Of a DNA stretch of 64,000 nucleotides, positions 2,513-45,059 are shown in pieces (the stretch's first letter is position 1; each line of letters opens with the position of its first letter). The DNA lies in NCBI RefSeq assembly GCF_000766945.1, contig NZ_ALBT01000078.1, positions 1 through 64,000 on the forward strand, given 5' to 3'. A program made the translations under genes and the position numbers. Under the pieces are notes generated by a model. It made no database searches and was not told the origin of the DNA. It worked only from the letters and a program-made list of their open reading frames with translations. The stretch comes from Cellvibrio mixtus subsp. mixtus J3-8. GTDB taxonomy: Bacteria > Pseudomonadota > Gammaproteobacteria > Pseudomonadales > Cellvibrionaceae.

Positions 2513-2541
2513 TTGACAAGCCTTACCCCATCCCCTAACCT
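2513..2541 (+). promoter_or_regulatory. Sigma-70 promoter of the C4-like RNA, copy 1
   Basis: TTGACA at 2513-2518, a 17-base spacer and TAACCT at 2536-2541. The copy at 43477-43505 has the same two boxes and the same 17-base spacing although the spacer bases differ, which supports a functional promoter. Transcription would begin near 2548. Confidence 0.75.
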
Positions 2542-2547
2542 GCCCGC

Positions 2548-2735
2548 GCTGCGGTAAATCCCGTGGCCGGGACTCTCACCCCCGATTTATTCCCAATTCG
2601 GCACAAGGCACGTCGCGGTGTTTTGTGTCCTCGCACAGTTATGCCTGTTGATATGGCGGCTGGGCGGGGCCGCCTTCGGGCGGGCCGGTGTTGAATTGGG
2701 ACCGGTGGTGAGACCCCTGCTCAGTCCGCCCCCAT
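2548..2735 (+). ncRNA. C4-like antisense RNA, copy 1 (candidate)
   Basis: A structured leader upstream of the gene at 2787. Visible elements: a hairpin TCCCG-TGGC-CGGGA; a GGCCGCC-TTCG-GGCGGGCC hairpin near 2670-2686; segment TCTCACC (2574-2580) complementary to GGTGAGA (2707-2713); segment CCCAATTC (2592-2599) complementary to GAATTGGG (2693-2700). Downstream, TCTCACC recurs at 2739-2745 and CCCAATTCAAC at 2765-2775, so the same two antisense segments can also pair with the region before the start codon. That two-box layout is the one known for the C4 antisense RNAs of phages P1/P7, which block an antirepressor gene. The C4 family name is by resemblance only. Confidence 0.65.
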
Positions 2736-2786
2736 AAATCTCACCTTATGGGGTTGGTTAAAAACCCAATTCAACGAGATTTTATT

Positions 2787-3086
2787 ATGGATAATGTAAC
2801 CTCTCCCTCCACCTGTGTAATCAAGCTCGATAAATTTCAATACGCTGCTTACCGACAATCGCGCCTGGAAATTCATACATCGCGAGGTCAATTTCTTACC
2901 AGAATTTCTCCGAGTATAAAAATTACGAATGACGATGATGCAATTTTTCAGTTGTGGTGCCAGGCAACCCTGCTGGAAGTGTTGTTCGATCAGATCCAAA
3001 TAAAATTACCACCGAAAACAATCAACAGCATTGTGAGGATTGTCGACAGACTTGATGTACATATTAAAAATCAGTTGTCGATGTAA
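2787..3086 (+). CDS. Small protein under C4-like RNA control, copy 1
   Basis: 99 residues. The frame is open from an ATG at 2748, but that start lies inside the predicted RNA target region, while the ATG at 2787 has an ACGAGA ribosome-binding-like stretch and matches the start of the paralogue at 43744 (MDN in both). Soluble, mixed alpha/beta; shared residues include a DD-A-x-x-QLW motif, LLE-LFDQI and a C-terminal KxQLSM. No known domain recognised; a DUF3077-type family is possible. In C4 systems the controlled gene is an antirepressor, but there is no direct evidence here. Confidence 0.75.
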   Translation: MDNVTSPSTCVIKLDKFQYAAYRQSRLEIHTSRGQFLTRISPSIKITNDDDAIFQLWCQATLLEVLFDQIQIKLPPKTINSIVRIVDRLDVHIKNQLSM

Positions 3087-43148: not shown

Positions 43149-43476
43149 TTCATTATTACCTGCTTAGAGAATCTAGCCATTGAGACCATTTAACAATGTT
43201 ATTAGCCGGAAAGTTTCCGCCTTTCAAACCGGAAGCTTTCCGTCTAAGTTTTTGATTGGTGATTTATAGCATACCCACCAATTACGCGCCATTACAGGCT
43301 CTAAGGGACTTTCATCCAGATTGGCCACTGGATGAAAGACGGAAAATTTCCTTGCTAATTCTTTTGTGGAGTCGATATTCGCACAGTGCAGATCAGGTGG
43401 TCGCTACAAATGTTAAAAAGTCAACGCTAGGTATTTATTTCGCCTATTAATCTGGTTTTTTTACTCAGCGTGCGCG
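43149..43476. other. Gap between array 2 and the second C4-like RNA
   Basis: 328 bases without a credible gene. Holds a 10-bp inverted repeat CTTTCATCCA (43309-43318) and TGGATGAAAG (43329-43338) and, at 43206-43243, two short palindromes, GGAAAGTTTCC and GGAAGCTTTCC. No integrase or attI is seen, as in the matching gap of array 1. Confidence 0.5.
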
Positions 43477-43505
43477 TTGACAACACTACCCTCATCCCCT
43501 AACCT
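43477..43505 (+). promoter_or_regulatory. Sigma-70 promoter of the C4-like RNA, copy 2
   Basis: TTGACA at 43477-43482, 17 bases, TAACCT at 43500-43505. Same boxes and spacing as 2513-2541, though the spacer bases differ. Confidence 0.75.
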
Positions 43506-43511
43506 GCCCGC

Positions 43512-43695
43512 GCTGCGGTAAATCCCGCAGTCGGGATTACGACCCCCGACAACAGATCGGCACTAAATACGTGAGTATTTTGTGTCCTCGCACAGCTTTG
43601 CCTGTTTGTTATGGCGGCTGGGTGGGGCCACCTTCGGGTGGGCCGGTGTGATCTGTTGCCGGTGGTCGTAACCCTGCTCAGTCCGCCCCCATGAA
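43512..43695 (+). ncRNA. C4-like antisense RNA, copy 2 (candidate)
   Basis: Same structure as copy 1 with paired changes. TTACGACC (43537-43544) matches GGTCGTAA (43664-43671); AACAGATC (43551-43558) matches GATCTGTT (43650-43657). The hairpin has become GGCCACC-TTCG-GGTGGGCC. Downstream targets TTACGACC (43696-43703) and AACAGATCA (43721-43729) again repeat the 5' segments and lie before the start codon. Every segment differs from copy 1, yet all complementarity is kept. Conserved unpaired parts are CTGCTCAGTCCGCCCCCAT and TTTTGTGTCCTCGCACAG. Confidence 0.65.
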
Positions 43696-43743
43696 TTACG
43701 ACCTCATGTGGCGGTTTACAAACAGATCAAAGAGATTTTTATT

Positions 43744-44061
43744 ATGGATAATACCGTTCTTCCTCCCCCGTTCCCCACGTCCCTTGTTATTAAACTCGAT
43801 CAACTTCAATACACGTTTTATCAACAATCCCGGCTGGAAATTCATTCGCCTGCTGGCAAAGTGCTTACTGTTATTAGCAAACCATTACCCGCAAATACAG
43901 AAGATGATGCGCTTTACCAGTTGTGGGCGCAGGCGTGTTTACTGGAGATATTGTTTGATCAAATTAACGAGCGAATGAAATTACCGCAGCGGGCGATTAA
44001 TAGTATCGCGCATGTAATTAACAGGATTGATGGGCATCTTAAGAAACAGTTATCAATGTAG
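43744..44061 (+). CDS. Small protein under C4-like RNA control, copy 2
   Basis: 105 residues from ATG 43744 (MDNTVLPPPFP); the ATG at 43708 lies in the RNA target region and is rejected. Clearly paralogous to the protein at 2787: IKLDQLQYTFYQQSRLEIHSP, AxxEDDALYQLWAQACLLEILFDQI and the end INRIDGHLKKQLSM. The first ten residues and the middle (GKVLTVISKPLPANT) diverge. Function unknown. AAAGAGATTTTTATT is the ribosome-binding region, next to the antisense target. Confidence 0.75.
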   Translation: MDNTVLPPPFPTSLVIKLDQLQYTFYQQSRLEIHSPAGKVLTVISKPLPANTEDDALYQLWAQACLLEILFDQINERMKLPQRAINSIAHVINRIDGHLKKQLSM

Positions 44062-44067
44062 AAAAAA

Positions 44068-44098
44068 CAAAGGCGGCAGCGCCGCCTTTGTGATCAAT
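44068..44098. terminator. Intrinsic terminator, shared by convergent genes
   Basis: CAAAGGCGGC, loop AGC, GCCGCCTTTG (10-bp perfect stem) then ATCAATTTTTATTTTCC. Ends the small protein gene at 44061 and, from the other side, may serve the amidase gene ending at 44094. Confidence 0.85.
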
Positions 44099-45059
44099 TT
44101 TTATTTTCCGGATTGTCCGTCAACCAGATAACTTTTTGCTCTGATACATGTTGTTGCCCGATTATCTCCCGATACAATTCCGGCTTGCGCGCCTGTTTAT
44201 AGCGAGTGCCACCTGCCTGGGCCAATTTTTCAGGATGCAGCGTAGCGATTGCAAATCCTTCATCCAGACGCGGGCATTCAGCAATGACATCACCGAAAGG
44301 ATCGATGATCATTGAGCAGCCATTTTTTAATTGATCATCGTCCATTCCAATCGGATTCGAAAACACAACATAGATTCCGTTATCGTACGCCCGTGCCGGA
44401 AGCCATTTCATAAGCCAGGCCCTGCCCTTCAGCCCTTCAAATTCCGCACGGAGTGATGTTGGGTCCGCATCCCGGTTTTTCCACAATTCGGGATCAACAA
44501 AGCCAGCTCCCGGCCGCGTTGATGGAGTACACATAGTCACATGCGGCATAAATATAACCTGCGCACCCAACAGCGTCGTTGCTCTGACATTTTCAATGAC
44601 ATTATTGTCGTAGCAAATCAATATTCCACACTTCCAGCCTTCAATATCAAAAACGATATATTCATTGCCGGGCGATAAATGCGGATTAATAAACGGATGG
44701 ATTTTCCGATACTTTCCAACAATACCGTTTGGTCCAACACAAATATAAGCTTTATAAAGCTTGTCATCCTCACCCAATTCAAAAAGGCCCGCTAGCACAT
44801 AAATATCCAGTTTTTTTGCTATGTCTATTAACCTTGATGTGCTCTCCCCTGAGGGAATGCTTTCGGATAGCTTCACCAATTGGTCACGGGATAATTTTCT
44901 GGCAAAGGTGTAACCGGTAATCGAACATTCGTGGAAAGCAACGACTTTCGCCCCGGCAGCAGCGGCTCGTTCGCAGAAATCCTGTATACGCCCCAGGTTA
45001 AATTTTTTATCCCCGCTCGCGTTTTCAAACTGAACGGTTGCAATTTTTAATGAATTCAT
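44094..45059 (-). CDS. Carbon-nitrogen hydrolase (nitrilase superfamily)
   Basis: 321 residues, soluble. Catalytic triad Glu (FHECSITGY), Lys (YRKIHPF) and Cys (GILICYDNNV) of the nitrilase/amidase fold, in the expected order and spacing. RAYDNGIYVVFSNPIG and GDVIAECP complete the family pattern. It should hydrolyse a small amide or nitrile; the substrate is unclear. Divergent from the flavin-dependent gene at 45218, so the two may share a promoter region and a pathway. Confidence 0.9.
   Translation of the reverse strand: MNSLKIATVQFENASGDKKFNLGRIQDFCERAAAAGAKVVAFHECSITGYTFARKLSRDQLVKLSESIPSGESTSRLIDIAKKLDIYVLAGLFELGEDDKLYKAYICVGPNGIVGKYRKIHPFINPHLSPGNEYIVFDIEGWKCGILICYDNNVIENVRATTLLGAQVIFMPHVTMCTPSTRPGAGFVDPELWKNRDADPTSLRAEFEGLKGRAWLMKWLPARAYDNGIYVVFSNPIGMDDDQLKNGCSMIIDPFGDVIAECPRLDEGFAIATLHPEKLAQAGGTRYKQARKPELYREIIGQQHVSEQKVIWLTDNPENKN

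Follow-up and report, generated by a model that had tools for sequence, protein, structure and literature searches.

C4-type antisense RNA modules with individually matched target boxes form a multi-copy family in the genus Cellvibrio

The C4 antisense RNA of P1 and P7 is cut out by RNase P, and of its two pairing segments a′ gives specificity, while b′ lies partly over the ribosome site (PMC5320573, available part). The heteroimmunity of P1 and P7 rests on this RNA (PMC12197685), and the immI operon of P1 is the subject of PMC8198154. In P4 CI, with its seqA and seqC, and in IsrK, an antisense RNA is cut from a leader and finds complementary sequences on both sides (PMC4825925); the motifs C4 and c4-a1b1 were described in PMC2864571. 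Outside these systems, Acinetobacter baumannii carries a group (group 1) of 21 similar C4-like sRNAs whose a′ varies and whose precursors are apparently longer transcripts, and for which a role on bacterial targets has been proposed (PMC5320573).

The 64,000-nucleotide stretch of Cellvibrio mixtus DNA analyzed here (the window) contains two copies of a module with the identity and architecture of C4, and across the genus such modules display three-way covariation and predicted specificity for their own targets. Both copies match the C4 covariance model (Rfam RF01695) above its gathering score, so an undescribed RNA family was rejected. The layout is the same in both: an upstream pair of boxes (a1/b1), the C4 RNA with a′ and b′, a downstream pair of boxes (a2/b2), and the start of a gene of 99 or 105 amino acids. 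The segments are as follows.

43477..43505, + strand, copy 2 promoter-like site: TTGACA, 17 bases, TAACCT
43537..43544, + strand, copy 2 a1 box, TTACGACC, in a hairpin loop of the isolated-leader fold
43550..43558, + strand, copy 2 b1 box, CAACAGATC
43607..43693, + strand, copy 2 C4 antisense RNA, RF01695, 58.7 bits (gathering 45), three-stem fold
43650..43658, + strand, copy 2 b′ box, GATCTGTTG, in the loop of P3
43664..43671, + strand, copy 2 a′ box, GGTCGTAA, between P3 and the 3′ strand of P1
43696..43703, + strand, copy 2 a2 target box, TTACGACC, in a predicted hairpin loop
43721..43729, + strand, copy 2 b2 target box, AACAGATCA, start codon 14 bases past the end of the box
43744..44061, + strand, copy 2 controlled gene, 105-residue orphan protein of the MDN family
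44068..44090, + strand, copy 2 inverted repeat past the stop codon, CAAAGGCGGC / GCCGCCTTTG, terminator-like by eye
2513..2541, + strand, copy 1 promoter-like site: TTGACA, 17 bases, TAACCT
2574..2580, + strand, copy 1 a1 box, TCTCACC
2591..2599, + strand, copy 1 b1 box, TCCCAATTC
2649..2736, + strand, copy 1 C4 antisense RNA, RF01695, 57.3 bits, with predicted fold
2690-2700, + strand, copy 1 b′ box within C4, with GAATTGGGA at 2693
2707-2713, + strand, copy 1 a′ box, GGTGAGA, within C4
2739..2745, + strand, copy 1 a2 target box, TCTCACC
2765..2775, + strand, copy 1 b2 target box, CCCAATTCAAC
2787..3086, + strand, copy 1 gene, 99-residue protein of the MDN family

The preliminary description of this DNA had placed a 5′, an antisense and a 3′ segment in each copy and had claimed that complementarity is kept despite the changed bases. 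All the segments are there, and complementarity is preserved for the a set and the b set in both copies; the covariation described for the TTCG hairpin could be traced to one compensated pair, G-C in one copy and A-U in the other. Folded alone, the C4 stretch of either copy gives the stems P1, P2 (with the TTCG loop) and P3, a GG stands at the position expected for the RNase P cut at the 5′ end of P1, and, as in C4 RNAs, a′ and b′ are complementary to the target ahead of the start codon. In isolated folds of copy 2, a1 lies in a hairpin loop of the leader and a2 in a hairpin loop of the downstream stretch. In a 248-nt single-strand fold a1b1 pairs with a′b′ instead, and the uncut leader may therefore hide its own antisense. 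The leader of copy 2 scores 35.3 bits against c4-a1b1 (RF03163, at 43499-43552; gathering 46.7) and 38.2 bits against the isrK model (gathering 50). Although the RF03163 score is below gathering, a1 and a′ do pair, and the upstream box has the role described for a1/b1, which resembles that of P4 seqA. Repeats like the terminator-like one of copy 2 stand 3′ of many other copies, as judged by eye, and the next ORF after copy 2 (44094-45059) is on the opposite strand.

Like the C4 of P1 and P7, these RNAs have three stems, b′ in the loop of P3 with a′ adjoining it, targets right in front of the start codon, and, as in heteroimmunity, relatives of differing type. Unlike them, the Cellvibrio modules have no recognizable ant or icd gene but one orphan protein each, and the copies in the window lie outside any recognizable prophage, in a genome with seven copies that are predicted to be mutually orthogonal. 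The c4-icd-ant order of the immI-type operon belongs to phages and prophages, a setting of which the 40 window ORFs scanned give no sign, although two relatives (L165 and L167) do lie amid phage head genes. With P4 CI and IsrK of Gifsy-1, the modules share an antisense RNA within a leader and complementary boxes on each side, but no replication or antiterminator gene follows. The A. baumannii group 1 is alike in its many C4-like RNAs per genome; the available part of PMC5320573, however, mentions neither an own downstream target, nor matched a2/b2 sets, nor mutual orthogonality. Multi-copy C4-like RNAs are already published, in Acinetobacter (PMC5320573). None of ten papers listed in an open-access search contains the word Cellvibrio, and, as far as such searches reach, the Cellvibrio family is new, as are the matched target that every module has, the covariation across three segments, and the mutual exclusion of equal specificities inside a genome.

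Seven C4 matches are present in the C. mixtus genome, six of them ahead of a gene of the MDN family, a name used only here and taken from the family's first residues. The genus as a whole yields 54 matches (three under the gathering score) in nine of 21 genomes, with 18 in G009 and 13 in G016, and the wider class has C4 in 24 of 369 genomes. By the rule adopted here, 51 of the 54 have a downstream ORF, and 42 of these 51 ORFs belong to the single family MDN. The common unit runs, in most copies among the matches listed, from about 130-190 bases 5′ of C4 to just beyond the stop codon. Within 160 bases upstream, 44 of 54 C4 copies have a TTGACA-like site followed after 16-18 bases by TAnnnT, compared with 23 of 1080 shuffled upstreams. 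Among 25 C4 cores chosen by hand from the 54, two-sided changes occur at nine of 25 stem pairs. The a′ and b′ boxes are readable in 52 of the 54 copies, the exceptions being L088 and L090; in L088 (G009:C11:57584), C4 lacks b′ and part of P3, and the downstream ORF is intact.

Covariation of the boxes was counted in 37 MDN modules, among which is the frameshifted L084 (left out of the MDN alignment and tree). At positions 4, 5 and 6 of a′, there are four, three and three Watson-Crick pair types, respectively, and pairing with a2 is kept in 111 of 111 cells; the same pair types are seen against a1, with 109 of 111 cells paired. Over all positions, a′ and a2 form 287 of 296 standard pairs compared with at most 245 in 2000 reassignments, and a′ and a1 form 283 of 296 compared with at most 239, counts in which the own totals, and those of a1 more so, are lifted because the best of four offsets (a2) or of 35 (a1) was taken for each copy, a choice that in two modules plainly landed on a segment other than a1. 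The claim of the preliminary description that RNA pairing, target included, is under selection is in this way supported by a set far larger than its two copies.

Specificity for the own target was predicted from box duplexes, not from models of the whole interaction, in the 49 of the 54 copies with a usable downstream start (L031, L035, L074, L088 and L090 are out). The mean a′b′-a2b2 duplex energy is −22.8 kcal/mol for own pairs and −11.7 kcal/mol for other pairs, and none of 20,000 random reassignments reached the own mean. Chance complementarity was rejected on this result and on the 37-module pairing, which exceeds all 2000 reassignments; in these tests of specificity and covariation, the control is label reassignment, which ignores phylogeny. 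The own C4 is the best or tied for the own target in 46 of 49 copies, and for the own a1b1 in 34 of 49. Within five genomes, each tested singly, the own C4 is strictly best in 7/7, 15/16, 10/11, 3/3 and 3/3 cases. The two window RNAs had been expected to act on their own gene only, an expectation that stands as predicted pairing: in C. mixtus each of the seven C4s is strictly best for its own target, and none of the 42 off-diagonal pairs comes within 2 kcal/mol of the cognate one (8/240 in G009 and 1/110 in G016). The RNAs are thus predicted to act on their own gene and hardly ever on sister copies.

Among the 49 copies there are 17 different a′ and 27 different b′ strings, which are mixed into 33 combinations, one a′ occurring with up to six b′. 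Boxes that vary independently had been named in advance as an observation that would speak against selected pairing; a and b do vary independently of each other, but each box still fits its own partners, so that selected pairing is not refuted. The same a′/b′ combination never occurs twice in one genome (0 pairs, where label shuffling predicts 3.4; P 0.018, n=48), and predicted cross-talk among the 37 standalone MDN modules concerns 1.2% of same-genome pairs and 5.0% of different-genome pairs (P 0.014), P values that are uncorrected, come from label shuffles and belong to tests conceived after the data had been seen. When the copies with other protein families are added, for a total of 47, the figures are 2.1% and 3.4%, which is not significant (P 0.18, of the same kind). 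The orthologous twins L017 and L024 were removed from the same-combination and cross-talk tests, and L088, which has no readable type, from the cross-talk and covariation tests. Diffusible RNAs, together with selection against cross-silencing, would lead one to expect specificities that differ within a genome. Twelve combinations recur across genomes, also across species borders; in two of them copies share outer flanks over the fetched stretch, and in the rest they do not. A copy has the same combination as its nearest protein relative in only three of 37 cases (a count that, like the tree, includes L088), and specificity therefore seems to change faster than the protein.

Several C4 copies are also found in two other Gammaproteobacteria, ten in G294 (L211-L220) and six in G387 (L221-L226), most of them preceding lineage-specific small ORFs of similar look, as judged by eye. 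By a crude measure, own and other downstream regions differ there by 0.6 (−21.9 and −21.3) and 0.9 kcal/mol, respectively, compared with 7.2 kcal/mol (−24.4 and −17.2) for the 37 Cellvibrio modules by the same measure. For the upstream box the differences are 10.9 in G294, 7.1 in G387 and 11.5 kcal/mol in Cellvibrio. The own downstream region is strictly best in 2/10, 1/6 and 8/37 cases, respectively, the Cellvibrio genomes being pooled so that recurring types tie. In G294 and G387, then, C4 fits own and foreign downstream regions about equally, and own upstream boxes better.

The controlled protein is an orphan, in our searches confined to the genus Cellvibrio. Of 144 genomes from the taxonomic family the MDN profile matches 11, every one of them in the genus (G004, G005 and G010 with fragments only), and its one match among the 369 class genomes is the C. 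mixtus genome itself. One member used as query has no match in 50,697 phage records or in a plasmid collection, and three members have none among viral contigs, in scans that find close relatives only. At E values up to 1, MDN matches nothing in Pfam, PHROGs, NCBIfam or PADLOC, so that the gene 3′ of C4 is not recognizable as the antirepressor of an immI-type operon; weak family matches far under the cut-off, including PADLOC REase_II at 16.3 bits, were treated as chance. A sequence search of the PDB gave no meaningful match. The AlphaFold2 model (pLDDT 81.9, pTM 0.47) is fair locally and poor globally, and no structural relative of it is present in the PDB or BFVD at E <= 0.001. Homology with a second C4-linked family (the L001 type) was rejected at an hhalign probability of 0.6%. 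The gene is under purifying selection: of 861 pairs, the 200 whose dS is < 1 have a median dN/dS of 0.29, and no value among them is 1 or more.

Each copy is quite probably a self-silencing module of the C4 type, in which an RNase P-matured C4 would most likely block translation of its own gene. By analogy with P1/P7 C4 and P4 CI, one promoter would give a leader carrying a1/b1, C4 and a2/b2, from which the host RNase P would free a C4 of about 80 nt. The b′ loop and the a′ strand would then pair with a2/b2, and with a1/b1, of transcripts from the same module, covering the stretch right before the start codon, and translation, perhaps also transcription, would stop. The module family appears to have multiplied in the genus while its specificity varied from copy to copy inside a genome. 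A phage immunity RNA is here multiplied into a gene family that ends in a conserved orphan protein, and the dozens of RNA regulator-target pairs, up to 18 per genome and with a readable two-box code, form a natural series in which one can directly test what governs RNA specificity and how cross-talk is avoided.

As to what is silenced, we tentatively favor an effector that is linked to phages and costly when produced at the wrong time. In the protein tree, 37 standalone rows split from five others (100/99), at a point where long branches meet and with a root drawn at the midpoint. The main clade is found at scattered sites and the sister clade partly in prophages. In the neighbor scan, which covered four of the five sister-clade loci (leaving out L085, as also L168 and L170), PHROG matches to portal, terminase, scaffold, major head and tail sheath surround L165, and matches to portal, terminase and major head surround L167. 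We take both head regions to be P2-like. The vicinity of L166 has tail and baseplate matches, and that of L169 one protein matching a phage family of unknown function and a second without a match. The prophage-borne sister clade implies no direction of transfer between phage and chromosome. In L165 (11567-12250), C4 is followed by a two-gene unit amid the head genes, an unrelated small ORF and then the MDN-family gene.

It is possible, if on balance doubtful, that C4 is the antitoxin or guard of dispersed chromosomal modules, kept as one copy per specificity, and that the protein, once released, halts growth, a phage or a rival prophage. The boxes are shuffled between protein lineages, and a type recurs in loci of other species and never twice per genome, as this reading would have it; if true, it would define an RNA antitoxin or immunity class made by RNase P with a combinatorial a × b code. 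More narrowly, and with a similar degree of reserve, the modules may be addiction or abortive-defense elements whose protein inhibits growth, with C4 serving as RNA antitoxin. If C4 were lost, through gene loss or through phage shut-off of host transcription, the protein would be released, and orthogonality would stop modules from covering for one another. The orthogonal types, with no combination twice per genome, agree with such elements. An antisense RNA and its predicted pairing to the mRNA are present, which would amount to type I toxin-antitoxin control only if the protein were a toxin. The MDN protein, on the other hand, is not known to be toxic, and its fold is unmatched.

The neighborhoods of the modules bear on the same point. 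When 144 of 145 neighbor ORFs at 20 standalone sites were compared with 133 of 134 ORFs from sites 100 kb off (the two omitted are a very long ORF and one of the MDN family), 118 PADLOC models were matched by the neighbors and 25 by the controls (21 of the 25 being one group, E1-E2), a difference to be read with the facts that one protein can match many models, that the first 25 of the 118 are those listed, that the controls are unmatched for accessory regions, and that the sites number 20. Two of the 20 modules lie near the only ZorA (Zorya) match in six genomes (G007, 0.9 kb) and the only bSEFIR match in the six (G014, 2.0 kb), respectively. Matches to AriA were not counted as evidence of defense, as the model matches in 12 of 14 control genomes. 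The defense genes near modules are suggestive only, because accessory regions gather many things.

Loci that have lost C4 were also read. Full-length ORFs are present in eight of 13 MDN loci without a C4 match, so C4 is not strictly required for the gene to persist; ten of the 13 were scanned for a promoter. L098 runs off its contig and has by eye the 3′ part of a C4, and L104 keeps promoter, leader and an intact ORF together with a diverged C4-like stretch seen by eye. L099 has a broken C4-like stretch (by eye) and no promoter match, L091, L092 and L103 have neither promoter match nor leader, and in L095 the leader is absent and the single promoter match, a poor one, lies 41 bases ahead of the start. 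L096 keeps promoter and leader with C4 cut and the start of the ORF lost. In L102 promoter and leader are kept and C4 is absent, and the protein lacks a nearly invariant glycine, which weakly favors a toxic product; intact ORFs without C4 could equally mean a harmless one. Taken together, this small, mixed and post hoc set gives hints that expression without C4 is costly. In L102 (G001:C11:298615), the stretch between a1 and a2 is missing, which looks like a loss between these two direct repeats, and promoter and leader run directly into the target box.

Rather unlikely, in our estimation, is that the small proteins are domesticated regulators of cell physiology whose level is set by C4, comparable to the Acinetobacter C4-like sRNAs. 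The modules are multi-copy and retained within the genus, and a role on bacterial targets has been proposed for those sRNAs (PMC5320573, available part). Their distribution is patchy, however, with profile matches in 11 of 21 genus genomes (three of them fragments only) and in none of the 123 other genomes of the family, and just one neighbor family is common to at least three of the 20 sampled sites.

That chromosomal C4s serve superinfection immunity, silencing incoming phages or satellites with the same C4-controlled gene while the protein is a passenger, is a very improbable reading. The heteroimmunity of P1 and P7 is its precedent (PMC12197685, available part), and the MDN sister clade is partly prophage-borne. 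The purifying selection on MDN speaks against a passenger, the a′/b′ combinations of L020, L038, L039, L075 and L085 are absent from all standalone copies, and MDN is absent from the phage records and from three viral-contig scans, the latter sensitive to close relatives only. Equally poor are the chances of leftover immunity cassettes of prophages with no present use, for which one could cite the many fragments and broken copies and, among 29 C4 loci from other genomes, roughly six whose downstream ORF by eye resembles a phage antirepressor (with L113 read at a wrong position), but against which stand the dN/dS of 0.29, the joint retention of promoter, boxes and ORF in dozens of copies, and a window in which 40 scanned ORFs name no structural phage family. 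A plain prophage remnant at the window was rejected on that last result.

Some features of the surroundings were also noted. A palindromic region lies 5′ of copy 2 (window 43195-43370), with TATTAGCCGGAAAGTTTCCG at 43200-43219 and further parts recognized by eye, and five copies of G009 and G016 have a similar region ahead of them; a dispersed repeat was rejected, as the pattern occurs once in the C. mixtus genome. One module of G009 is adjoined by a tyrosine-recombinase-like ORF (L179, 8316-9284), presumably an integron integrase. Among the 40 window ORFs scanned, one matches the bacterial EndoU nuclease family (PF14436, 1.3e-21).
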